Below, in pieces: positions 1,970 to 35,410 of a stretch of DNA of 36,319 nt. The translations under genes and the position numbers were made by a program. Positions within the stretch are counted from its first letter, which is position 1. Every line of letters starts with the position of its first letter. This DNA is from Candidatus Bathycorpusculum termitum (GTDB lineage Archaea > Thermoproteota > Bathyarchaeia > Bathyarchaeales > Bathycorpusculaceae). The DNA is taken from NCBI GenBank assembly GCA_031254875.1, contig JAIRTW010000037.1:1-36319 (forward strand), in the 5' to 3' direction. The notes under the pieces were generated by a model. The model was not told where the DNA came from, did no database searches, and saw only the letters and a program-made list of their open reading frames with translations.

Positions 1970-3064
1970 TCAAAAAAGGGGTGTTGGGAGTTTTCTTTTA
2001 GCGCCCGAGATGGTTTTCTGTTTAAGCATAGTTATCGCGATAGTTAGTGATAGGACTAAAACCGCTGTTAAGAGGCCTGTTGCTGGATTGAGATTGAGTG
2101 TTGCCTGTCTGGGTCCCACATGGTCAGTTGAGGCAATTGCGCTTGTACAGAACCATGAAATTGATTGGTCTGCTGTGATTCCGCCGCCGACTGAAACGTG
2201 GTCTATACCTGGATTGTGATTGTTGGTTAGGTTAGTTGCGTTGAGCGTTTCTATATTGTTTAGGTAGAAGCGGACTTCGCCGTTTCCTGCGCCTTGCACC
2301 GCTTTGAGTTCAACTAGATACCAGGTGTTAGGCGACACTGTTGCGGTGGAGTTAATATTGTAAATTTGGTTTCCGTCAGCGTAGGCCAGATTCCAGTATG
2401 ATGCTCCATTTCGGTGTATAACGCTTAGGGCGCAGACGCCGTTGGAGGGAGTAAAGTTGTCCTCTATTGCAGAGTTATACATACCGCCAGCGCCGACTAT
2501 GCTACCGTCTTGTTGGGGCAGATTGCCAAAGTAGAGGTACCAACGCCAGTTGAGGTTGCTGTAGGTTCTGTTAAACCACTTATAGACGTATCCCCAGCAG
2601 GCATCTGTGGGGCCGTCTGTGGAGCATTCTAATGTTTTGTCTACAACCATGAGGTTGACACCATATCTATCAATGTTTGTCCAAGCGCTTGTATCTCCTA
2701 ATTCAAAACCGTCACTGAAAACTACTGATGCGGGATTTGGCGTAGGATATGGTTCTGGGGTAGTATCTGGGATTGGAATAGCTGTGGGTGTGGGTGTTGG
2801 TGTTGTGGTGGGTGTTGGTGTTGTGGTGGGGGTGGTTGTCGGTTTGGTTGTTGGCGTTGGTGTACTTTGGGTTGAGTTTGTGGTGGTGCTTGGACTTGGT
2901 GAAGCGGAAGGATGGTTGTTGGGCGAGGCACTGGGTGTTGAAGTGGTGTTATCGGCGTTAGGGGAATTGGTTCCGGTGTCGGTGTAGAGGGTAATGGCTC
3001 CGACGACGGTTGCTAAGATAACGGCCGCTATGATTGCGGTGATAATTTGGGTGTTTCTGTTCAT
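1970..3064 (-). CDS. Thr/Pro-rich cell-surface protein with a concanavalin/LamG-like domain
   Basis: A 364-residue exported protein. Residues 8-28 form a hydrophobic signal/anchor. Residues about 33-112 are a low-complexity Ser/Thr/Pro linker with TPT-type repeats, as in heavily O-glycosylated stalks. Residues about 113-320 read as a beta-sandwich, starting SDGFELGDTSAW and rich in aromatics and Gly, similar in style to concanavalin A/LamG-like binding domains. Many N-x-S/T sequons are present (NRT, NFT, NST, NAT). A second hydrophobic helix near 326-346 is followed by a basic tail, so the protein is probably anchored at the C-terminus. I see no PGF/PEF-type sorting motif. The start has TGGAG about 9 nt upstream. 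The ligand is unknown. It is transcribed toward the 16S gene. Confidence 0.8.
   Translation of the reverse strand: MNRNTQIITAIIAAVILATVVGAITLYTDTGTNSPNADNTTSTPSASPNNHPSASPSPSTTTNSTQSTPTPTTKPTTTPTTTPTPTTTPTPTPTAIPIPDTTPEPYPTPNPASVVFSDGFELGDTSAWTNIDRYGVNLMVVDKTLECSTDGPTDACWGYVYKWFNRTYSNLNWRWYLYFGNLPQQDGSIVGAGGMYNSAIEDNFTPSNGVCALSVIHRNGASYWNLAYADGNQIYNINSTATVSPNTWYLVELKAVQGAGNGEVRFYLNNIETLNATNLTNNHNPGIDHVSVGGGITADQSISWFCTSAIASTDHVGPRQATLNLNPATGLLTAVLVLSLTIAITMLKQKTISGAKRKLPTPLF
2793..2828. repeat. Perfect 18-nt tandem repeat (two copies) in the Thr/Pro linker
   Basis: GGTGTTGGTGTTGTGGTG occurs twice back to back (2793-2810 and 2811-2828), inside a longer degenerate GT-rich tract of about 2780-2900. 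On the coding strand it gives Thr-Pro repeats of the surface protein. Such tracts change length easily by slippage. Confidence 0.8.
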
Positions 3065-4230: not shown

Positions 4231-5514
4231 ATGCCCATAACGCCTGATGCGAAACGAAAAATCATCGGCGTCACAACATTACTTGTAATCTTTACTATCC
4301 TTGGCTCCTTATTTGTCCTTGAACGGCCCCAAAACCCCAACTTAACAGCATATGAGGTACAGGCACAAAAAATCTTTGAGGACACCAAAAGCCAATTCGA
4401 ACGTATCCGTAACGTCACCCTGCCTCCAAACATTAAACTATCCGTCTACACAAAACAGCAGGCCATAGAACGCTGGGGCAAAGGCTTCTCCAGCTTGGAT
4501 ACAGCCCGCATCCTAAGACAAGAAAACATCTACAAAAGCTTGTTTTTGATGGCAGAAAACGATAATCTCGCCGATGCTGTCGCAGAATGGACCGCCGGCT
4601 GGACTGCAGTCTCATTCGACAACGAAATATATGTGATTTATGAAAACTTTTGGCCCTGGGATATACCTGATGCTGCAGTCACCTTGATACATGAGCTTAC
4701 ACACATCTGGCAGTCTGGTCTCCCAGCTCCAACCAGTTACGACACCGACAGAGCCCACAGCGCATTGCTAGAAGGCGATGCCTCCTACATGGGCGACTAC
4801 TACAAAGCCCAGTACAACAACAGCATAATCTCTGCAGTCCCTGATTCCCGTAGCCGTTTACCTGTTTCTATAGATGTTTTCCAGCTGAACCCTATCTATC
4901 CAAGTGTTCCCGACACGGTCACTGAACTGAATTGGTTCCCCTATATCAGGGGCAAAACATTCGTATCTACACTTGTTAACGACAGCGGTTGGGACAGACT
5001 GAATCGTTGCTACACACCCCCCTATACGCCCAGCACAACCGCGCAGATTCTTCACCCCGACAAATACTTTGCTGGCAAAACAGCAATTTCTGTCTTTGTA
5101 CCAACACCTGCCGATGACAGCTGGACCAGAATACCGAGCCCCTATGGATACCCCTATGACACTTACGGTGAATACTTCATCTATGCTATGCTAAGCCGTT
5201 GGCTCAACGACAGCCAAGCGCAGAATGCGGCGGCTGGCTGGAGTGGAGACAGCTTCACCTACTACGAAAAGAACCACGATTTCTTGTTTACCTGGAACAT
5301 TACCTGGGACAGTATTCAAGCCGCTTCCGAATTCAATCAGGCTTTCATAGATATGTTGAACCTTGCCCAAGCAAACTCTCAAGGCGTCAATGCCTGGTTT
5401 ACAAACGACAGATATCTCACCTTGACTTGGAATCCAAACACACAATCAACCCTAATTATCTGCTCAACAAACCAAACCGTTGCAGCGTCATCTTTTTTCA
5501 CCTACCAACCTTAA
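4231..5514 (+). CDS. Membrane-anchored protein with a gluzincin-like HExxH motif
   Basis: A 427-residue protein with one hydrophobic segment (about 10-30) that should anchor or export it; the rest would lie outside. The sequence shows HELTH at residues 154-158 in TLIHELTHIWQSG and a Glu at 181 in ALLEGDASYMGDYY. HExxH with a Glu 23 residues after the second His is the zinc-ligand pattern of gluzincin metallopeptidases, so a zinc peptidase-like fold is a reasonable inference. I cannot assign a MEROPS family. The C-terminal half is rich in aromatic and polar residues, with WNITWDSIQAASEFNQAF as a recognisable helix. The start follows a TATA box with leaderless spacing. It ends 2 nt from the convergent polyferredoxin gene. 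Confidence 0.75.
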   Translation: MPITPDAKRKIIGVTTLLVIFTILGSLFVLERPQNPNLTAYEVQAQKIFEDTKSQFERIRNVTLPPNIKLSVYTKQQAIERWGKGFSSLDTARILRQENIYKSLFLMAENDNLADAVAEWTAGWTAVSFDNEIYVIYENFWPWDIPDAAVTLIHELTHIWQSGLPAPTSYDTDRAHSALLEGDASYMGDYYKAQYNNSIISAVPDSRSRLPVSIDVFQLNPIYPSVPDTVTELNWFPYIRGKTFVSTLVNDSGWDRLNRCYTPPYTPSTTAQILHPDKYFAGKTAISVFVPTPADDSWTRIPSPYGYPYDTYGEYFIYAMLSRWLNDSQAQNAAAGWSGDSFTYYEKNHDFLFTWNITWDSIQAASEFNQAFIDMLNLAQANSQGVNAWFTNDRYLTLTWNPNTQSTLIICSTNQTVAASSFFTYQP

Positions 5515-13618: not shown

Positions 13619-13940
13619 GCGGCGATGGATCTTAGGCGGTGGGTTAGGGGTCCATTGTACCGTAAATCCCCTACATGACGGGCTGACATCTGCGGATGAG
13701 GCGTCAAAGGCCGCTCGGATCTTCATTTCCGAACCAGTGACTATCCGTCCTTTGGGGCTGGCGGTCAACGGGCGGTTTCCGTAGGGAAGCTGTTTCGTTG
13801 TTTAGCAGGCGAACCCGGCTAGGCTCGGGAGAGAGCAACCTAAGTTTGGACGTCATGCGCTCAAAGGGGTGCGGGTACGAGCGTAGGACTTGAGGTATTC
13901 AGGCGGAGTCTGGGCGTCAAACCGTGGCGGTCCATCGCTA
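13619..13940 (+). ncRNA. ffs: Signal recognition particle (7S) RNA, archaeal type
   Basis: A structured RNA of about 320 nt, the usual archaeal SRP RNA length. The ends pair as archaeal helix 1: GCGATGGA (13622-13629) with TCCATCGC (13931-13938), then CGGT (13637-13640) with ACCG (13921-13924). The Alu-domain core TGTACCGTAAATCCCC lies near 13658. Helix 6, the SRP19 site, reads GCGGTTTCCGTAGGGAAGC near 13771. The helix 8 / SRP54 site lies at 13811-13840, with AGG, a GGGA tetraloop and GAGCAACC. This aligns with the usual GTCAGG...GGAA...AGCAGCC but with several changes. It would bind SRP19 and SRP54 for membrane targeting. Confidence 0.92.
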
Positions 13941-15244: not shown

Positions 15245-17374
15245 GTGTCAAACATCTCAAGTTACTCTACGAAGAGATCCACTCTTATTCAAGAAAAAAA
15301 ACTGGATGACACAAGTTACTATCTCAACAGGGAGCTTAGCTGGATAAGGTTCAATGCGCGTATTCTTGAAGAAGCACGAGACGAGTGTCATCCATTGCTT
15401 GAACGTATCAAATTTCTAGCAATCTGTGGAAGCAACCTCGACGAGTTTTTTATGACAAGGATGGCTCGTCTGATTAAAAAGATAGCTAAAGAATCCAAAG
15501 AACGGTCAGTGGATGGAATGACCTCCCTAGATCAGGTTTTGGCTGTCAGCGCAGAGATTTCTCCCCTGCTTGAGAAGCATGCCGTCTGCTGGAAAAACGA
15601 GCTTCTGCCCGCTTTAGCCAGCGAGAACATAACAATTCTAAAATACATCGAAGTATCGGAAAAATCTAAAGATATCCTGCGGAACTACTTTAAAACCACT
15701 ATTTTGTCCCAGATAAAAATATTTAAAGAAGAATCTGAAGCGTCGTTAATCGAGAATCTGCAGGTTTATCTATGCGTAGAATCAAAAACCAAGGAATTCC
15801 ATTCAATTGTGGGGTTCCCCTCAAGGTTTGGCAGGCTCCTAAAAATTCCCCAGAACCCCTACCGTGAACTAATCGAACATAATTTTGTTTTCATAGAAGA
15901 TCTTATCATAAACTGTTTAGATTTAATATTCCCAAACACACAAGGCTTAACTGCTTACCCGTTTAGACTAACTCGCAATAGCGAAATAGAAATCATAATG
16001 GATGATTCAGATTTTTTGGGTTCAATAAAGAAGGGGCTCACAAAAAGAAAAACTGGTTTTCCCAGCAGACTTGAATTTGACATGCAGACCCCTGTCACTT
16101 TGAGGAAAACCTTAATGGATTATTTTAATTTGCCCGCCCCATTAACTTTCACATTTGACGGTCCGCTTGGGCTAGTCGATCTTTGGCGTCTCTACAAAAT
16201 CCCCCGCCCCGACCTAAAAGACAGAGTATTTCTTCCCTCTCTTTTACCCTTGCTGACTCCTGAGAAAAGTCTGTTTACCACGATCACTAAGCGTGATATC
16301 GTGCTCTATCATCCCTATGACGGGTTTGAGATAATCATTGCTTTACTTAAGGAAGCTGCTCAAGACCCCTTGGTCGAAGACATCTGCATTACCCTGTATC
16401 GTATGGATGCAAATTCCTCCATCGTGGATGCCCTTATGATAGCTGCGCAAAATGGCAAAAAAGTAACCGCTATTGTCGAGTTAAAGGCCAAGTTTGACGA
16501 GGAAAACAATATCCTGCTGGTTTCAAAGCTCAGACAGGCCGGCGTCGTCACAGTTTATAATTTCCCCAACTTTAAAGTCCACGCTAAACTCTGTCTCATA
16601 GTCAGGCGGGAAAAGGCGGGGTTGGTGAGATACTCGCATGTTGGTTCAGGCAACTATAATGCGGTAACCGCTAAAATTTACGGTGACATAGGTTACTTGA
16701 CAGCTAATCCCGAAGTCGGTTTAGAACTCGAAGCGCTTTTCCACAGTCTAATCAACGGGTTGCAGGAAAAAGACTTCAAGCATCTACTGGTATCACCTAA
16801 AAGCCTTAAGAATGAACTTTTATCGCGGATTGATCGTGAAATTGCTGTTCACCAAAGGACGGGCAAGGGGTATTTGGCGTTTAAACTCAACAATTTGGAG
16901 GATAAAGACATCGTCAAAGCTCTCTATCGTGCGTCTATGGCTGGAATTAAAGTGGAGCTCAATGTCAGAGCGCTGTGTGTTCTATGTCCCGGAATAACGG
17001 CGGTAAGCGAGAACATCTCTGTAATCTCCATCGTCGGACGCTTTTTGGAACATGCCCGCATCTACTACTTTGAAAACGGCGGCGAAAGTGAACTCTTAAT
17101 CGGCAGTTCCGATATGATGATTCGTAACCTCAAAGATCGTGTAGAGGTTCTCTTCAGCGTTCCCGATCCCCAGATACGCCGAGAAATCTTTAATTACATA
17201 CTTAAAATCCACCTCAAAGACAACGTTAAAGCCCGAAAACTCCTCTCAGACGGTAACTACCAAAGAGTCACCCCTAAACCTGGTGAGGCAAGCATTAACT
17301 CGCAGTTCTGGCTAATCCAAAACCGAGGTATCTGGCATGAATACGCAGCCTACCTTCCAACCGTGTACAGTTAA
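15245..17374 (+). CDS. ppk1: Polyphosphate kinase 1
   Basis: A 709-residue enzyme of normal PPK1 size that reversibly makes inorganic polyphosphate from ATP. Domains in order are the N domain with YLNRELSWIRFNARILEE, the head domain, and two phospholipase-D-like C domains. The catalytic His that becomes phosphorylated is His465 in YSHVGSGNYN, preceded by FKVHAKLCLIVRR; a second conserved His603 lies in FLEHARIYYFENGG. ITLYRMDANSSIVDAL is another family segment. The start is GTG at 15245, with only a weak GGAAG upstream. Its end overlaps the next gene by 38 nt, so the two are almost certainly co-translated. Confidence 0.96.
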   Translation: MSNISSYSTKRSTLIQEKKLDDTSYYLNRELSWIRFNARILEEARDECHPLLERIKFLAICGSNLDEFFMTRMARLIKKIAKESKERSVDGMTSLDQVLAVSAEISPLLEKHAVCWKNELLPALASENITILKYIEVSEKSKDILRNYFKTTILSQIKIFKEESEASLIENLQVYLCVESKTKEFHSIVGFPSRFGRLLKIPQNPYRELIEHNFVFIEDLIINCLDLIFPNTQGLTAYPFRLTRNSEIEIIMDDSDFLGSIKKGLTKRKTGFPSRLEFDMQTPVTLRKTLMDYFNLPAPLTFTFDGPLGLVDLWRLYKIPRPDLKDRVFLPSLLPLLTPEKSLFTTITKRDIVLYHPYDGFEIIIALLKEAAQDPLVEDICITLYRMDANSSIVDALMIAAQNGKKVTAIVELKAKFDEENNILLVSKLRQAGVVTVYNFPNFKVHAKLCLIVRREKAGLVRYSHVGSGNYNAVTAKIYGDIGYLTANPEVGLELEALFHSLINGLQEKDFKHLLVSPKSLKNELLSRIDREIAVHQRTGKGYLAFKLNNLEDKDIVKALYRASMAGIKVELNVRALCVLCPGITAVSENISVISIVGRFLEHARIYYFENGGESELLIGSSDMMIRNLKDRVEVLFSVPDPQIRREIFNYILKIHLKDNVKARKLLSDGNYQRVTPKPGEASINSQFWLIQNRGIWHEYAAYLPTVYS

Positions 17375-19682
17375 CTCCAGTTACTGCCGCTTCGGCGCCC
17401 AAACCCTGCTAAAACTTTTAGATGGCTATAATGACTTAATTGTTGGCGTCATAGATAATCCAGATATAGAGTATGTGCATAAAACGCGGGTAGGTTCCCG
17501 GCGGCTGAGCGCAGTGTTAACGCTTTTTGAGGGATGCTTCTCCAAAAAAGAATACACAACATGGTGCCGCGACATCAAAAAGGTTACACGGTTACTTTCC
17601 CAAGCCAGAGACCTCGATGTTCAAATCAGCCTTGTGGAGGGTTACCTAAAAAAACTTGATACCGTTACAGATAAAACCGGATTGAATGCGTTACTAAAGG
17701 ATCATAAAAATCGTCGAAAAAATATACAGGCGACGGTTGTCAACGGTTTAGAAGAACTCAAAGCCGCTCAAACATTGGCTAAAATCAGAGAGCACTGTGA
17801 GGATTTAACAGCGCAACAAAATGATTATGCAAACATTGATTCTGGACAGGTGCTTCAAAGAGCCCACCGGTACATAAGCCTTAGGCTGAATGACTTTCTC
17901 TCCATGAAACCGTACGTTTACCTCGAAAATGAGACGCTCCATCATCACCAGATGCGTATCTACGCCAAAAAACTTCGCTACACCCTGGAGTGCTTTGCTT
18001 CGCTCTACGAAAACAAGCTTGAATCTGAAATTCAGCGGATCAAGGATTTTCAAGATACATTAGGCGAAATGCATGACTGCGACGTCTGGCTTGGTTACAT
18101 AACACCGTTCAGTAGAAAACTGCAGGAGCGCGCTAAACTCACAATTGCAAAAAAACCAACCCGTATGGTCTCCGATAAGTCACTACAGATTTTCGAAGCC
18201 TACATCCAGGACAGAAGGAAGAAATACTACCGCCAGTTTGTAGATTGCTGGAATCAATCCATGAAAGATCGCCTCTTTGATCAATTCACCGATAAATCCC
18301 ACCGGGGGATTCAGGCGGCATTGCCGGAAAAAACTCGCCAATCCCTCACCAACCCTAATGTTAAACTCGCCGTTCTATCTGATGTTCACGCTAACCTACA
18401 GGCATTGCAAAAAGTCCTCCAAGACGCCAAAATACGTGGGGCAGAAATTTTTGTTAACGCTGGAGATTCTGTGGGATTTGGCGCCTGCCCCAATGAAGTC
18501 GTTTCGTTGCTCTGCGAAAAAGAAGTGTTGAGCATCGCTGGCAACTATGATGTGGCGGTGATAGAAAACCGAAGCGACGCGAAGAACCAGAAGAAAACAG
18601 CTTTCAAGTACACCAAAAAATCGCTCTCCAAGGCATCTAAAAATTATCTGACCTTGTTGCCCCGAGAGCTTCGATTAGAGGCAGGGGGCAAACGGCTTCT
18701 TATAGTGCATGGAAGCCCCAAATCAATTGATGAACACCTCTATTCTGACACCCCCCCTGAACAGATGCAGAGTTTAGCAAAGATAGCAGATGCCGATATT
18801 GTGGTGGTTGGCCATTCGCATATACAGTTCCAACGTGAAGTGAACGGAACGGTTTTTGTGAATCCAGGAAGCACCGGGAGACCAAGCGACGGAAATCCGC
18901 AGACAGCTTATGCGCTTTTGAGTTTTAACCCCTTCAAAGTAGAGCTAATCAGATTACCCTATGACGTAGAAAACGCCGCATACGCCCTACGCAAATGTGG
19001 TCTGCCGGAGAGTTTTGCCCAGATGCTTTTCCGCGGTGTATCAATAGACGCAGTAGTCAAAGACGATAAAGTCAAAAAAGCCGAGCTGAAAACCAACTGC
19101 GGTGCCGCGGTGGCGGCTTGCGAGCGGTTTTCTGGGGGGCTTCAATCAGATATCAAACATTACCAGCAGGTCACCCGTCTCGCTTTAGCCTTGTTTGACG
19201 AGTTAGTCGGCGTTCACAAACTAGGCAAGCAGGAGCGTTGCTGGCTTGAGTGTGCTGCTGTGCTTCATGATGTGGGCTTATCAAAGGATGGTGGGCCGCA
19301 CCATAAGGAGTCGATGCAACTTATCCTAAACAGCACACAGTTGCCTTTTCCCTCAAAGGAGAGGAGAATTATCGCTAGTATCGCAAGGTATCACCGCAAA
19401 GGCCTGCCTAAACCCAAACACTACAACCTTGCCTCATTGGACCACAAATCGGTGCATTCTATCTGTGTGTTGGCTGCGCTTTTGCGTTTAGCTGATAGTC
19501 TTGATTACCGACATAAAAGTTGCGTTAAAACGCTGTGTGTTATGGTCAGCGCAAAAAAGGTAACGGTGGAATGTCTCGCTGAGGTGGATTTGTTGCTGGA
19601 GTTGCAGGTGTTCAATAAAAAGAAGGATTTGTTTGAAAAAATTTTTAAAAAGAAAGTGGTGTTGATATGGAATCAACAGTGA
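17337..19682 (+). CDS. Three-domain protein: CHAD + calcineurin-like phosphoesterase + HD
   Basis: A 781-residue protein combining three modules. Residues about 15-310 are a CHAD domain, a helical bundle with conserved His that binds polyphosphate granules: His48 in VHKTRVGSRRL, His202-204 before QMRIYAKKLRY, His246 in EMHDCD. Residues about 344-525 are a YfcE-type metallophosphoesterase with its metal ligands: D349/H351 (LSDVHANL), D377 (NAGDSVGFG), N403 (GNYD), H458 (HGSP), H493/H495 (GHSHI). Residues about 600-780 are an HD domain (LHDVG, His644/Asp645; ARYHRKG) closely similar to the C-terminus of the adjacent Ppx. GAGGT at 17325-17329 fixes the start inside ppk1, and the end overlaps ppx by 16 nt. 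The substrate is unknown; polyphosphate or a nucleotide is likely. Confidence 0.93.
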   Translation: MNTQPTFQPCTVNSSYCRFGAQTLLKLLDGYNDLIVGVIDNPDIEYVHKTRVGSRRLSAVLTLFEGCFSKKEYTTWCRDIKKVTRLLSQARDLDVQISLVEGYLKKLDTVTDKTGLNALLKDHKNRRKNIQATVVNGLEELKAAQTLAKIREHCEDLTAQQNDYANIDSGQVLQRAHRYISLRLNDFLSMKPYVYLENETLHHHQMRIYAKKLRYTLECFASLYENKLESEIQRIKDFQDTLGEMHDCDVWLGYITPFSRKLQERAKLTIAKKPTRMVSDKSLQIFEAYIQDRRKKYYRQFVDCWNQSMKDRLFDQFTDKSHRGIQAALPEKTRQSLTNPNVKLAVLSDVHANLQALQKVLQDAKIRGAEIFVNAGDSVGFGACPNEVVSLLCEKEVLSIAGNYDVAVIENRSDAKNQKKTAFKYTKKSLSKASKNYLTLLPRELRLEAGGKRLLIVHGSPKSIDEHLYSDTPPEQMQSLAKIADADIVVVGHSHIQFQREVNGTVFVNPGSTGRPSDGNPQTAYALLSFNPFKVELIRLPYDVENAAYALRKCGLPESFAQMLFRGVSIDAVVKDDKVKKAELKTNCGAAVAACERFSGGLQSDIKHYQQVTRLALALFDELVGVHKLGKQERCWLECAAVLHDVGLSKDGGPHHKESMQLILNSTQLPFPSKERRIIASIARYHRKGLPKPKHYNLASLDHKSVHSICVLAALLRLADSLDYRHKSCVKTLCVMVSAKKVTVECLAEVDLLLELQVFNKKKDLFEKIFKKKVVLIWNQQ

Positions 19683-21253
19683 AAAATGCAGAAAACGTTG
19701 TGGGATTCATTGACATTGGCACAAACGCTATACGCCTTTTGGTGGCAAGAATTAACCACAATTTTTCCTACACCACCATAAGCCGAGAAAAAGAGATTGT
19801 TCGTCTAGGTGAGGGTGAATTCAAGGACCATATCCTAAAACCCGGAGCGATGGAACGCGCTATATTTGTTTGTGGAAAATTTGTCGATTTAGCCCGAACG
19901 TATGGTGCTGTAGAAATCATCTCGGTGGGGACCTCAGCGATTCGTGAAGCTGCCAACCAAGCGGAGTTTCTCAAAAATCTCAAAGCAAGAACCGGTTTAA
20001 CTGTTAGAGTAATCTCCGGTGAGGAGGAGGCGCGTCTTATCTGGTTGGGTGTCTCCAGTGGTATAGATATCGGTGCCAAAAAAGCGCTCTTTATTGATTT
20101 AGGCGGTGGTAGCACTGAAATCGCCATCGGAAATCAGCATGAATGCTTCTATATCAGTAGTCTCCGTTTAGGTGCAATCCGGCTAACCGCTCAGTTAATT
20201 GGGGAAGGCTGGGCTGGTCCCATAGAAAGTAGTCTCTACAAGAAAATGAGGCATTATGCTTGTAGTCAAATCAACGTAGTGAAACCCCACGTTTTAGAGT
20301 ATGGCATCCGAGTGGCGTGGGGTTCTTCGGGTACTATAATTAACTTGGCTGAGATCGCAAATAAGCTATTTAAGAAAGCCGATTCCAGTGATGAGGCGCT
20401 GGTGTTGACCCGAAAAAACCTCAAGAAACTGGCGACTGTTCTATGTTGGTTGCCCCTTGAGGAGCGCAGAAAGGTGCCTGCTATAAACCCTGAGCGCGCT
20501 GACATAATCGTTGCGGGTGCTGCAATCATAGAAACGGTCATGGAAAAATTTGGGTTGGAAGAAATCCGTATAAGTCACAGAGAACTCCGTGATGGTCTTC
20601 TCGTAGAGTACTTGTCTACTTTTGAGGGTTTTCGGGAGCTCCAGAAGGAACCTATGAGAAACCAAAGCATCCTTCATCTGGGCCGGTCCTGCAACTTTGA
20701 TGAGAAACACGCTGAAACCGTTGCGGTATTAGCGCTGGAACTCTTTGACAGCGCTAAAAAAATAGAGCTCCACCATCTGGGTATGAGAGAGCGGGATCTG
20801 CTAAGACATGCGGCGTCTCTTCATGATGTTGGTGACTTTCTCTCTTTTAATGACCATCATATACATTCTCATTACATCATAAATAACGCGGGGCTTCCAG
20901 GTTTTGACAAAACAGAAATCCAGCTGATGGCAAACATTGCAAGGTTTCACCGCAAAAAGTTCCCCACAAAAAAAGTCTTAAAAGCCGAGGAGGGGATGGA
21001 TGAAAAAAGCAAAGAAGTTGTTGCAGTGCTTTCGACGCTTTTGAGGCTTGCAGAAAAACTTGACCGAAGTCACTGCGGACTGGTTAAGAAGGCCGAGTTT
21101 GTTAAGGGCGGCAAAGACCAAGTTGTTTTGAGGTTCTACTCAGACAGTGATTGTAGCTTAGAAGAGTGGAGTGTGGTTCAGAACCAGTCAGCATTCTACT
21201 GTGCGTTTGAGAAGCAACTAAATGCACAGTGTATAGTAACGCTCAACCCATAA
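19667..21253 (+). CDS. ppx: Exopolyphosphatase of the Ppx/GppA family with C-terminal HD domain
   Basis: A 528-residue protein with an actin-like ASKHA core. It has the phosphate-1 loop FIDIGTNAIRLLVA at about 14-27, SVGTSAIREA, EEARLIWLGV, and the phosphate-2 loop FIDLGGGSTEIAIG near 143-156. The C-terminal part carries an HD domain (AASLHDVG, ANIARFHRKKFP) as in long Ppx/GppA proteins. The family removes terminal phosphate from polyphosphate or hydrolyses pppGpp. The neighbours ppk1 and the CHAD protein favour polyphosphate. It overlaps the preceding gene by 16 nt and faces ppk2 with a 9-nt gap. Confidence 0.95.
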   Translation: MESTVKNAENVVGFIDIGTNAIRLLVARINHNFSYTTISREKEIVRLGEGEFKDHILKPGAMERAIFVCGKFVDLARTYGAVEIISVGTSAIREAANQAEFLKNLKARTGLTVRVISGEEEARLIWLGVSSGIDIGAKKALFIDLGGGSTEIAIGNQHECFYISSLRLGAIRLTAQLIGEGWAGPIESSLYKKMRHYACSQINVVKPHVLEYGIRVAWGSSGTIINLAEIANKLFKKADSSDEALVLTRKNLKKLATVLCWLPLEERRKVPAINPERADIIVAGAAIIETVMEKFGLEEIRISHRELRDGLLVEYLSTFEGFRELQKEPMRNQSILHLGRSCNFDEKHAETVAVLALELFDSAKKIELHHLGMRERDLLRHAASLHDVGDFLSFNDHHIHSHYIINNAGLPGFDKTEIQLMANIARFHRKKFPTKKVLKAEEGMDEKSKEVVAVLSTLLRLAEKLDRSHCGLVKKAEFVKGGKDQVVLRFYSDSDCSLEEWSVVQNQSAFYCAFEKQLNAQCIVTLNP

Positions 21254-21262
21254 GCTGAGTTC

Positions 21263-22153
21263 TTATTCTTTTTCCAGTTCAGCTTTAGCTTTAGCCAGAG
21301 CCTCTTTTTGGGTTTCACTCAACACTGGATACTTTAAGTTCAGTTTTTCAATCTCTGATGTAATAACATCTGAGATCACCGCGTGTGCAACCCATTTCCT
21401 GTCTGCTGGCACAACATACCATGGTGCCCATTCTGTACTGGTTTTGTTTAGCATTTCCTCATAGACTTTTTCGTACTCTGGCCATTTAGACCGTTCCTCA
21501 ATATCGGTTAGGGAAAACTTCCAAGCTTTATCTGGATTTTCAAGGCGTTTGAGCAAACGTTTTTTCTGTTCTTTCTTTGAGATGTGAAGATAAAATTTGA
21601 GAACCAAGGTTCCGCCTCGAGTGAGATGGCGTTCAAGGAGGTTTATGTCCTCGTAGCGTTGCTCCCAAAACAGTGCCTTATTCTTTATCGGTGGTAGCTT
21701 TTGTTTGGCAAAGATCTCGGGGCGGACCTTAACAATCAGCACGTCCTCGTAGTAGGAGCGGTTAAAGATGCCGATACTACCCCGTTCAGGAAGCACTTTT
21801 ATGTGGCGCCACAAAAAATTATGCTTGAGTTCTTCAGTAGAGGGCGTTTTGAAACTGGTAACTCGGCAACCCTGAGGGTTAACTCCGGACATAACATGGC
21901 GGATGGTGCTGTCTTTACCTGCCGCGTCCATACCTTGCAGAATAATCAGCATGGCATAGGTATCGCTTGCCCAGAGCAGTTCTTGTTCGCTTATGAGTTT
22001 CTGTCGGTTTTCCTCAAGAAGAGCCAAGGCCTGCTGTTTTAGGTCTTTACGTTTTTCCTGTTTGGCCCATTTTGGAAGCCAGCCTGAGTCGTAATTTTTG
22101 AGGCGTATGGTTTTCCCCGCTGGCACCTTGAAGTCTTGAGCGTCTATAGACAT
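21263..22153 (-). CDS. ppk2: PPK2-family polyphosphate:nucleotide phosphotransferase
   Basis: A 296-residue P-loop kinase. Walker A-like GMDAAGKDS lies at residues 74-82, followed by TIRHVMSGVNPQG, FLWRHIKVLPERG, FNRSYYEDVLIVKV, and the lid region HISKKEQKKRLLKRLENP. These are hallmarks of PPK2, which phosphorylates nucleoside di- or monophosphates using polyphosphate. The length and the N-terminal extension fit the single-domain class I-like proteins. The nucleotide preference cannot be read from sequence. Transcription is opposite to ppk1-ppx, from a promoter shared with the histidine kinase region; an AT-rich TATA candidate lies at 22221-22235. Confidence 0.93.
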   Translation of the reverse strand: MSIDAQDFKVPAGKTIRLKNYDSGWLPKWAKQEKRKDLKQQALALLEENRQKLISEQELLWASDTYAMLIILQGMDAAGKDSTIRHVMSGVNPQGCRVTSFKTPSTEELKHNFLWRHIKVLPERGSIGIFNRSYYEDVLIVKVRPEIFAKQKLPPIKNKALFWEQRYEDINLLERHLTRGGTLVLKFYLHISKKEQKKRLLKRLENPDKAWKFSLTDIEERSKWPEYEKVYEEMLNKTSTEWAPWYVVPADRKWVAHAVISDVITSEIEKLNLKYPVLSETQKEALAKAKAELEKE

Positions 22154-28409: not shown

Positions 28410-29474
28410 TTGGAATCAAGCTTGACAACCAAAGAAGCAGAAAAACTAAACGAAGGGCAACGTAAACTACAAGTTACCGGCGGATCAACCTTTATCCTTT
28501 CTCTGCCCAAAGACTGGGCAACCAAAAATGAGCTCAAACGCGGTAGCTCCATGATTGTACGCGAAGAAGATGATGGCTCACTATCTATATCCCCCACCAG
28601 TCTCCCCCAGAAAGGAAAGCAAGATGAAGCATTCATCAAAGTTACCCCAAACGACAACCCTGACGCTATCATGAGAACAGCCATCTCTGCATACCTAAGT
28701 GGCTACAACATAATTCATGTCAGGGCACAAAGCCAAAAAGTTCTATCCTCAAAACTTAGAAACCACCTTAAAACTTTTGCTAGGCACTATCTTGTCGGCA
28801 CGGAAATAGTCACAGATACCTCCACGGACTTGACACTTCAGGTGTTGCTGAATTATCCTGAGCTTACTGTGCAAAACGCTTTGAGTCGCATGGCAATAAT
28901 TGCATCGTCGATGCATAAAGACGCCATGCAATCACTTAGAAAACTCGATCATTCCAGCGCAAAAGCAGTCATCGAAACAGACCGCGAGGTCAACCGCTTC
29001 AGTCTCTATATAGTGCGGTTGTTAAAGTTGGCGGTTTCTAATCAAAGAGTCGTCAAAGAAATCGGATTGAATAGCCAAAGAGACTGTTTAGGCTATAGGC
29101 TTATCGCTAAATCTGTTGAACGCAGTGCTGACCATGCCACAAAAATTGCTGAAAATACGTTGCTCTTAAAAGAAACCGTTAACGAGGACTTACTGAACAA
29201 AATTACTCAGCTAAGTGCGTTAGCTAACACGATGTTTGAGCATTCCATGGAGGCCCTGTTTAGGCATGATTTCCACATAGCAGAGCGTGTGATTGAACAA
29301 CTGGAGCAGGTGCATCAATTTGAAAAAGAAGCAGTTCTTTGCTCTCAAAATGTAAAGGTTGAAGAAGTCGTTAACTTGAGGTTGCTTATCGAGAGTGTCA
29401 GGCGCACTGCGGAGTATGCAAGCGATATCTCAGAAGTGGTGCTTAACTTAAACGTTGAATCCGTCCTAAGCTAA
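28410..29474 (+). CDS. AbrB-PhoU fusion, archaeal phosphate regulator
   Basis: A 354-residue protein. Residues about 15-60 are a SpoVT/AbrB swapped-hairpin DNA-binding domain (RKLQVTGGSTFILSLPKDWA, then LKRGSSMIVREEDDGSL). The rest is helical, with two PhoU-type repeats that include RLIAKSVERSADHATKIAE and LLIESVRRTAEYASDIS. The domain order is known in archaea and suggests a regulator that reads Pst/PhoU status directly at DNA. It is divergent from pstS with a 116-nt shared promoter, so it is a good candidate regulator of pst. The start is TTG at 28410; a second TTG at 28422 is possible. Confidence 0.92.
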   Translation: MESSLTTKEAEKLNEGQRKLQVTGGSTFILSLPKDWATKNELKRGSSMIVREEDDGSLSISPTSLPQKGKQDEAFIKVTPNDNPDAIMRTAISAYLSGYNIIHVRAQSQKVLSSKLRNHLKTFARHYLVGTEIVTDTSTDLTLQVLLNYPELTVQNALSRMAIIASSMHKDAMQSLRKLDHSSAKAVIETDREVNRFSLYIVRLLKLAVSNQRVVKEIGLNSQRDCLGYRLIAKSVERSADHATKIAENTLLLKETVNEDLLNKITQLSALANTMFEHSMEALFRHDFHIAERVIEQLEQVHQFEKEAVLCSQNVKVEEVVNLRLLIESVRRTAEYASDISEVVLNLNVESVLS

Positions 29475-30697: not shown

Positions 30698-31303
30698 ATG
30701 AGCTTTGTTGAAATCATGATAGGGGAAAAACTCAAAGAAGCCGATCCAGCCCTAGATATAATGGGTTCAGACCGCAAGGTGTTGCAGATAGCCTGCCAGG
30801 ATTTTACGAACTACCTTAAATTCAGGTGGAACTTGATGGGGCAAGAAGCAAGCCAATGTGAAATGGTTGAGCGGCTGGAGACACTTATCAAAGAAAGCCC
30901 TGAGGAATTAGCTGCGTTTTTGGCAATTTGGTGCAACATCTGGTTTAAGAAATGGAAAGAACGGGTAAAGTTACTTATCGGTAACCAGAGTGCTAATCGA
31001 TTGAACCAGATGACCAAAACCATCAATACCGCCGAACCTCTGTGGCAAAATATTGAGTGTAAACAGGAATTCCAAGAACTAATCGTTGCAACGCTTATCA
31101 AAAACGGTGAAATCTGTGGAACAGAAATCCTCGCAGAAAATCTTCTCAAGTTAGAATTGGGCGAAAACTGCACCCAAAATCTAAACGAAACCGAAAGAGT
31201 GTTTGTTGCCCTAAACAATACCCTGCGCAAAGCCCGTGAAATGGCGCGGAGCCGAGGACCATTGATTTTCGTAAAAGTTGACAAGGGCTACTATAACATC
31301 TGA
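30698..31303 (+). CDS. Hypothetical protein, helical, archaeal
   Basis: A 201-residue soluble protein that I do not recognise. It is predicted mostly helical and charged, with Trp/Cys-rich helices in the first half (AAFLAIWCNIWFKKWKERVK). It ends in a basic strand-like tail (AREMARSRGPLIFVKVDKGY). There is no signal peptide or membrane segment. A TATA-like TTTTAAATAA lies near 30637-30646. It stands alone, between the HAD gene and the convergent L37e gene. Confidence 0.7.
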   Translation: MSFVEIMIGEKLKEADPALDIMGSDRKVLQIACQDFTNYLKFRWNLMGQEASQCEMVERLETLIKESPEELAAFLAIWCNIWFKKWKERVKLLIGNQSANRLNQMTKTINTAEPLWQNIECKQEFQELIVATLIKNGEICGTEILAENLLKLELGENCTQNLNETERVFVALNNTLRKAREMARSRGPLIFVKVDKGYYNI

Positions 31304-34879: not shown

Positions 34880-35410
34880 CTAAGTTGCCTCGTCTTGGGT
34901 TTTTCTGTAGAACGCTTTATCGATAGTTCGGACGTCGAGGTTGTGTTTGGCGGAGGTTTTACGCAGGGCCGATAGAAGACGCAGATAATTCTGTGGCGTG
35001 TAGAGTCCCGGCGGTGCGTTGCCCAACAAGCCCCTCCAAGAGGCGTGGTCGAAAATACCATAACGGACAGGGTCAAAGAAGGTTAAGATAATGCTGGCGA
35101 GTACCGGCGAAATACCCTCCAATGTTGTTAGGCAGTTAATGCGATAGAGGTCGTCGGCGTTTGGAAGACTTAGGCTTTGGCTGGTTATGCGTTGGACTTT
35201 TTCTTCGGTGTTGCGTATGACAAGCTCCTGGACACGTTGTAACTTTTCTGGTTCCGCTTTAAATTTCCACTCCACCACCAACGCGAGATCCTTCACACTA
35301 AGCGCCTTGTTTTTCCGGAATTTTGCACCTAATTCACGTTCTCGTTGCGCCTGCCAGCCGTAGGCTTTGTCGTATTTACGGCTCCACATGAGATAATCAG
35401 GCTTATCCAT
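34880..35410 (-). CDS. Helix-hairpin-helix-like hypothetical protein
   Basis: A 176-residue soluble protein. The N-terminal half is charged and helical. Residues about 95-135 contain LTTLEGISPVLASIILTFFD followed by a conserved-looking GIFDHASWRGLLG. This resembles the HhH-GPD arrangement of DNA glycosylases, where a hairpin is followed by a catalytic-region Asp. A DNA-binding role is possible, but glycosylase activity is not shown: no lysine nucleophile or Fe-S Cys set is visible. It is on the minus strand and single. Confidence 0.7.
   Translation of the reverse strand: MDKPDYLMWSRKYDKAYGWQAQRERELGAKFRKNKALSVKDLALVVEWKFKAEPEKLQRVQELVIRNTEEKVQRITSQSLSLPNADDLYRINCLTTLEGISPVLASIILTFFDPVRYGIFDHASWRGLLGNAPPGLYTPQNYLRLLSALRKTSAKHNLDVRTIDKAFYRKTQDEAT

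Follow-up and report, generated by a model that had tools for sequence, protein, structure and literature searches.

A single gene of the archaeon Candidatus Bathycorpusculum termitum, encoded between ppk1 and ppx, joins a CHAD domain, a metallophosphoesterase (MPE) domain, and an HD domain in one protein. Fused or encoded by adjacent genes, these three parts (hereafter "the module") travel together also in other phyla and usually lie next to genes for polyphosphate synthesis, which suggests a widespread machine, apparently not described before, that degrades or controls polyphosphate in many anaerobes. As far as sequence comparison goes, the link of the module to polyphosphate is strongly supported by the conserved polyphosphate contacts of the CHAD domain, the operon in which the gene lies, its co-occurrence with ppk1, and similar loci in other phyla. 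More tentatively, we favor the reading that the fusion protein is a CHAD-tethered metallo-hydrolase that cuts polyphosphate and would either feed or replace Ppx.

A CHAD-MPE-HD fusion gene between ppk1 and ppx

Within the window, i.e., the whole analyzed stretch of 36,319 nucleotides, the fusion gene occupies positions 17337..19682 of the forward strand as an intact frame for 781 amino acids, exactly as it had been delimited in a first-pass annotation. Its ATG at 17337 follows 7 nt behind a Shine-Dalgarno-like GAGGT (17325..17329, forward strand) that can be read directly from the sequence, and the first residues from this ATG align with the starts of several orthologs. Pfam confirmed that CHAD, phosphoesterase, and HD parts are united in one protein, with all matches above the curated cut-offs: The CHAD domain (residues 34–252, 17436..18092; PF05235, E 2e-41) is followed by Metallophos_2 (PF12850, residues 343–529, E 4e-26) as part of an MPE domain spanning residues 343–568 (18363..19040) and by an HD domain of the Ppx domain III type (residues 602–727, 19140..19517) that was matched by both Ppx-GppA_III (PF21447, residues 602–741, E 3e-17) and HD (PF01966, residues 607–724, E 1e-6). 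The protein ends with a part resembling Ppx domain IV (residues 728–781, 19518..19679). No match was obtained in the fusion protein for PF02541, which covers the ASKHA domains I/II of Ppx/GppA, or for an N-terminal CYTH/TTM domain.

The earlier description of the gene as sandwiched between ppk1 and ppx with overlapping frames was borne out. Polyphosphate kinase 1 is encoded directly upstream on the same strand (15245..17374, 709 amino acids; Pfam as well as NCBIfam TIGR03705 with 696 bits vs. a cut-off of 466), and the 3' end of its gene runs 38 bases into the fusion gene. Downstream, a complete Ppx with domains I–IV (19667..21253, forward strand, 528 amino acids; PF02541 and PF21447) overlaps the 3' end of the fusion gene by 16 bases. 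Most fused loci, and the window with them, show this overlapping or adjacent arrangement with ppk1 and ppx.

The fusion is conserved in Bathyarchaeia

The fusion protein was detected in 22 of 257 Bathyarchaeia genomes and is uninterrupted in 17 of them, while in the other 5 the two halves lie on different contigs (3 genomes), the gene is cut by a contig end (1), or the frame is broken within CHAD (1). Orthologs down to 42% identity retain all three domains, and mean identity among orthologs is 51–64% in the domains and 30–31% in the linkers. An artifact of assembly or annotation that joined separate genes, which the first-pass annotation had named as a possible objection, can be practically dismissed: The parts do occur as separate adjacent genes in several phyla, but the fusion is unbroken in these 17 genomes despite their divergence, among them assemblies of one and three contigs (G149, G007), and in other phyla. 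We regard the separate adjacent genes as natural versions of the same set.

Module and ppk1 occur together in 21 of the 257 Bathyarchaeia genomes, the module alone in 1 (a partial genome), ppk1 alone in 2, and neither in 233 (Fisher p 1.6e-27, uncorrected for relatedness); ppk1 is thus present in 21/22 module genomes, and the module in 21/23 ppk1 genomes. Behind ppk2, some Bathyarchaeota additionally carry another, diverged fusion gene (L037:8614-11049, L034:11685-14192, and L036:5701-8313), and the first of these, in genome G022, has lost most MPE ligands and shows HE instead of the HD motif.

The CHAD domain retains the polyphosphate-contact residues of CtCHAD

The AlphaFold model of the fusion protein (pLDDT 94.6, pTM 0.88) was compared to solved structures using Foldseek. 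Its CHAD domain, composed of two four-helix bundles, resembles the complex of CtCHAD with polyphosphate (6qva, TMt 0.74). Mutating CtCHAD residues H253, R256, R260, R296, R418, and Y419 lowers polyphosphate binding (PMC6537752), and these align with H48, R51, R55, R91, R214, and Y215 of the fusion protein, each of which is missing from at most one of 87 sequences. The domain shares both fold and contact residues with the phosins CtCHAD and SsCHAD, which differ in that the described proteins have neither MPE nor HD and bind polyphosphate without cutting it. For a homolog from Methanomassiliicoccus, the model gave good domains but an uncertain arrangement (pLDDT 92.4, pTM 0.53, from a smaller alignment), and the idea that all homologs form one rigid body is not supported by this pTM, with the smaller alignment to be kept in mind.

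A SapH-like metallophosphoesterase and its possible substrates

The seven metal ligands listed by the first-pass annotation (D349, H351, D377, N403, H458, H493, and H495) are indeed found at these residues of the MPE, and 77 of 86 sequences have the full set. Five of the 9 exceptions carry one substitution and one carries two, while one sequence is truncated, one contains an ambiguous residue, and in one, the second fusion copy in G022, most of the site is gone. The label "YfcE-like" fared less well: NCBIfam yfcE (TIGR00040) is narrowly passed (63.2 vs. 56.25 bits), but in fold and sequence the domain is nearer to 3rqz, 1nnw, and SapH (3qfn), which reach TMt 0.77–0.82 with the maximum for 3qfn, than to YfcE-type 3ck2 (0.66) or MJ0936 (1s3l, 0.73). 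The SapH-type fold is present including a C-terminal extension to around residue 568, and we do not favor the MPE as a YfcE ortholog. SapH (Spr1479), 1nnw, 2gju, and 3rqz match the fused domain in fold and length, but none of them has a CHAD or HD domain, and they are not known to be encoded in polyphosphate operons. In a tree, module and stand-alone MPEs are split on one branch with a support of only 79, too low for us to propose that the module MPE arose once.

Among the solved relatives for which an activity is named, the closest is SapH, an asymmetric Ap4A hydrolase and phosphodiesterase, and this activity rests on the title of the PDB entry since our search of the open-access literature on SapH biochemistry returned nothing relevant. 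The named activity can be read in two ways. By the PDB title, SapH cuts a phosphoanhydride bond inside a phosphate chain, which is in line with a hydrolase of polyphosphate; on the other hand, the substrate is a dinucleotide, and the MPE family is promiscuous, both of which speak against this reading. The main rival to polyphosphate cleavage is therefore a scenario that we consider rather unlikely, in which the MPE acts on a nucleotide (Ap4A, another dinucleoside polyphosphate, or a nucleotide-capped polyphosphate) that PPK or ADP/ATP cycling forms as a by-product, and in which CHAD does no more than position the enzyme at the granule. It is in keeping with a nucleotide substrate that homologs weakly match models of symmetrical Ap4A hydrolases and that in some Anaerolineae the gene following CHAD encodes the same MPE fused to a SAM hydroxide adenosyltransferase / SAM hydrolase, an enzyme that releases adenosine (L061:6964-8538 and L063:7063-8664 and, judged by length, also L062, L064, and L069; an Asp replaces the equivalent of N403 in L063, L064, and L069). 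However, the constant partners of the module are polyphosphate proteins and not nucleotide enzymes.

An old relative of Ppx domain III with a complete set of metal ligands

The C-terminal region of the fusion protein resembles domains III and IV of Ppx/GppA in the form of an HD fold followed by a small alpha/beta end (3rf0, a C-terminal fragment of Yersinia Ppx, matched over around 200 residues; TMt 0.73). Calling it a "Ppx-type HD" is too narrow, given that it comprises Ppx domain III plus IV and not HD alone, and it differs from Ppx/GppA by the missing ASKHA domains I/II, a full set of metal ligands, and its position in a separate clade. The set H608, H644, D645, H655, H686, and D720 (H-HD-H-H-D) is complete in 63/67 module HDs and in all five HDs encoded by free genes, but in none of the 51 HDs of Ppx at module loci, where the last Asp is lost in 50 (replaced by Glu in 47 and by Asn in 3 more). 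The Ppx encoded in the window is no exception, its own HD having Glu where the last metal-ligand Asp would be expected, and no complete set was found among the solved Ppx proteins that we aligned.

In a tree, a single branch divides module HDs from Ppx HDs (support 98/98), and this split is unchanged when the free HDs are added (support 98). The separate groups rule out that the HD arose by recent duplication of domain III of the adjoining Ppx. From the complete ligand set and this split, we conclude that the module HD is related to Ppx domain III but separated from it long ago, and that it is predicted to be better equipped for metal than its counterpart in the adjoining Ppx. An apparent HD-CHAD fusion at L109 was judged to be a chance match, with no Pfam HD and a very long branch.

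The intact site raises the question of whether the HD is the main catalyst, i.e., a phosphohydrolase acting on polyphosphate or a signal nucleotide with the MPE as an accessory. This reading, which would also account for the free HD genes that have neither CHAD nor MPE beside them, appears quite improbable to us: Several Anaerolineae have CHAD and MPE but no HD of the module family anywhere in the genome (G278, G279), and the HD derives from the Ppx-III family, whose members are not known to use this domain for catalysis.

Gene arrangements in other phyla

Named genomes were scanned as well, and since only the top 80 out of at least 514 matches were retained, the following counts among 79 loci are not frequencies. 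The full fusion (23 loci) was found in Bathyarchaeota, Thermoplasmatota including Methanomassiliicoccales, Candidatus Methanoliparales (Methanolliviera), and one member of the Synergistales. CHAD followed by an MPE-HD gene (14 loci) occurs in Synergistota, Planctomycetota, Omnitrophota, Elusimicrobiota, Methanoperedens, and others, CHAD-MPE followed by HD (8 loci) in Methanomicrobiales, and three separate adjacent genes (5 loci) in Anaerolineae such as Leptolinea tardivitalis; at the remaining loci, one part is missing in the fetched stretch. These two- or three-gene versions often adjoin ppk1. The statement of the first-pass annotation that CHAD usually stands alone or with CYTH is correct for described proteins, which the literature knows as stand-alone CHAD and as CYTH/TTM-CHAD (PMC6537752, PMC10892726, PMC6973038), but CHAD-MPE-HD is recurrent in public genomes.

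Parts of the module can also be found apart. Of six Methanomicrobiales genomes with CHAD-MPE and no adjoining HD, five have a free module-type HD gene elsewhere, and in two of these five the free HD lies directly behind another ppk1 with CHAD-MPE at a different place (L143:1-3056, L144:262-3004). CHAD and HD can persist without the MPE, as seen from the ligand loss of the L037 paralog and from a Methanoregula copy without MPE (L104), which also weighs against polyphosphate hydrolysis as the role of the module. These free HD genes behind ppk1 and the survival of a paralog without MPE ligands, together with the overlap of the fusion gene with ppk1, would also suit a regulator or scaffold in which CHAD senses polyphosphate and the protein controls PPK1 or Ppx, with HD and MPE binding a ligand or removing a signal and without bulk degradation. 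We consider such a role unlikely because two nearly fully conserved sets of metal ligands are unusual for a pure scaffold.

Many module-bearing genomes have no detectable Ppx

No Ppx (PF02541) match was obtained in 14 of 26 module-bearing genomes, while nine control genomes were positive. Of these 14, which are mostly incomplete metagenome-assembled genomes but include the cultured strains of Leptolinea and Levilinea, 11 have ppk1, and in 12 the Ppx-type domain III of the module is the only one in the genome. In two Methanolliviera genomes and one of Methanoperedens with ppk1 but no Ppx, PPK2 was not detected either. The absence of Ppx proves nothing by itself, since PPK1 or PPK2 running in reverse can also consume polyphosphate, and many genomes have Ppx and module together. 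The case of Leptolinea, whose module comes with PPK2 but no detectable ppk1, counts against a role in polyphosphate hydrolysis.

A candidate polyphosphate-degrading machine

Cleavage of polyphosphate by a CHAD-tethered hydrolase is supported by the conserved CHAD contacts, the complete MPE ligands, the ppk1/ppx context, and the genomes lacking Ppx, and two known systems offer precedents: CHAD enhances the polyphosphatase to which it is fused in YgiF (PMC6537752), and yeast PPN1 is a calcineurin-like endopolyphosphatase (PMC6973038). The granule-tethered phosphatase suggested by the first-pass annotation may reasonably be inferred. By analogy to CtCHAD and SsCHAD, the CHAD domain would hold the polyphosphate chain, and the di-metal SapH-like MPE would cleave the phosphoanhydride bonds of this bound chain, probably at internal positions, to yield short chains and new ends. 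The HD domain with its full ligand set might then either be a second hydrolase that trims these ends or guide the chain by binding it, and Ppx, where present, would finish the short chains; in genomes without Ppx, the module may be the main route of breakdown besides kinases running backwards. The overlap with ppk1 could couple the production of the proteins for synthesis and breakdown. A bolder version, possible but doubtful in our eyes, is that the module constitutes a new prokaryotic class of polyphosphate-degrading enzymes with two metal centers, a CHAD-guided endopolyphosphatase of calcineurin type and an active hydrolase of the Ppx-III-type HD, which fully replaces Ppx in several anaerobic lineages.

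E. coli YgiF, a TTM/CYTH-CHAD short-chain inorganic polyphosphatase, is like the fusion protein in joining CHAD to a metal phosphohydrolase, but its catalytic triphosphate-tunnel (CYTH) fold lies at the N-terminus, and it has no MPE or HD. PPN1 is comparable as a phosphoesterase of calcineurin type that acts on polyphosphate, but it is eukaryotic and has no CHAD or HD. In Haloferax volcanii, a Mn/Co polyphosphate-degrading activity unlike the known ones has been described without an assigned gene (PMC13318637); its metal preference would suit MPE or HD. A survey of archaeal polyphosphate metabolism does not mention CHAD (PMC6864096). The first-pass annotation did not know the three-part architecture as a described enzyme, and we likewise found no description or characterization of CHAD with MPE or HD in the open-access papers that we searched. 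What appears to be new here, judged from predicted domains, is a CHAD-phosphohydrolase fusion similar to YgiF in principle but with a different catalytic fold and a second metal domain.

Microbial polyphosphate breakdown is generally ascribed to kinases and exopolyphosphatases. According to a paper from 2026, little is known of how archaea metabolize polyphosphate, and no known genes for its breakdown are present in many haloarchaea that possess those for synthesis (PMC13318637). The module is a concrete and widely distributed candidate for this breakdown. Should polyphosphate indeed be cut by it, this would account for breakdown where Ppx is missing, prokaryotes would gain a polyphosphatase of calcineurin type, and the Ppx-type HD domain would acquire a role in its own right. 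Since some cultured strains carry the module as two or three genes, each part can be tested alone.

Genomic surroundings of the locus

The nearest named relatives, Candidatus Bathycorpusculum, place the genome in the Bathycorpusculum group of the Bathyarchaeia, a genus reported from digesters and sediments as well as from peat and the guts of termites (PMC10684969). Past ppx, the window encodes PPK2 on the opposite strand (21263..22153; PF03976, TIGR03709) and, as assigned by Pfam and NCBIfam, a histidine kinase, phoU and pst genes, and an AbrB-PhoU protein, which places the locus in a setting of phosphate storage and uptake. In the latter protein (28410-29474), encoded next to the pst-phoU genes, a DNA-binding domain of AbrB/MazE type is fused to PhoU. 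Four open reading frames of 176–427 amino acids (1970-3064 and 34880-35410 on the reverse strand, 4231-5514 and 30698-31303 on the forward strand) had no Pfam match at 0.001. Upstream, an archaeal SRP RNA (13623-13937) lies between trpA and ppk1, and a partial archaeal 16S rRNA (1-1267) is located at the contig edge.
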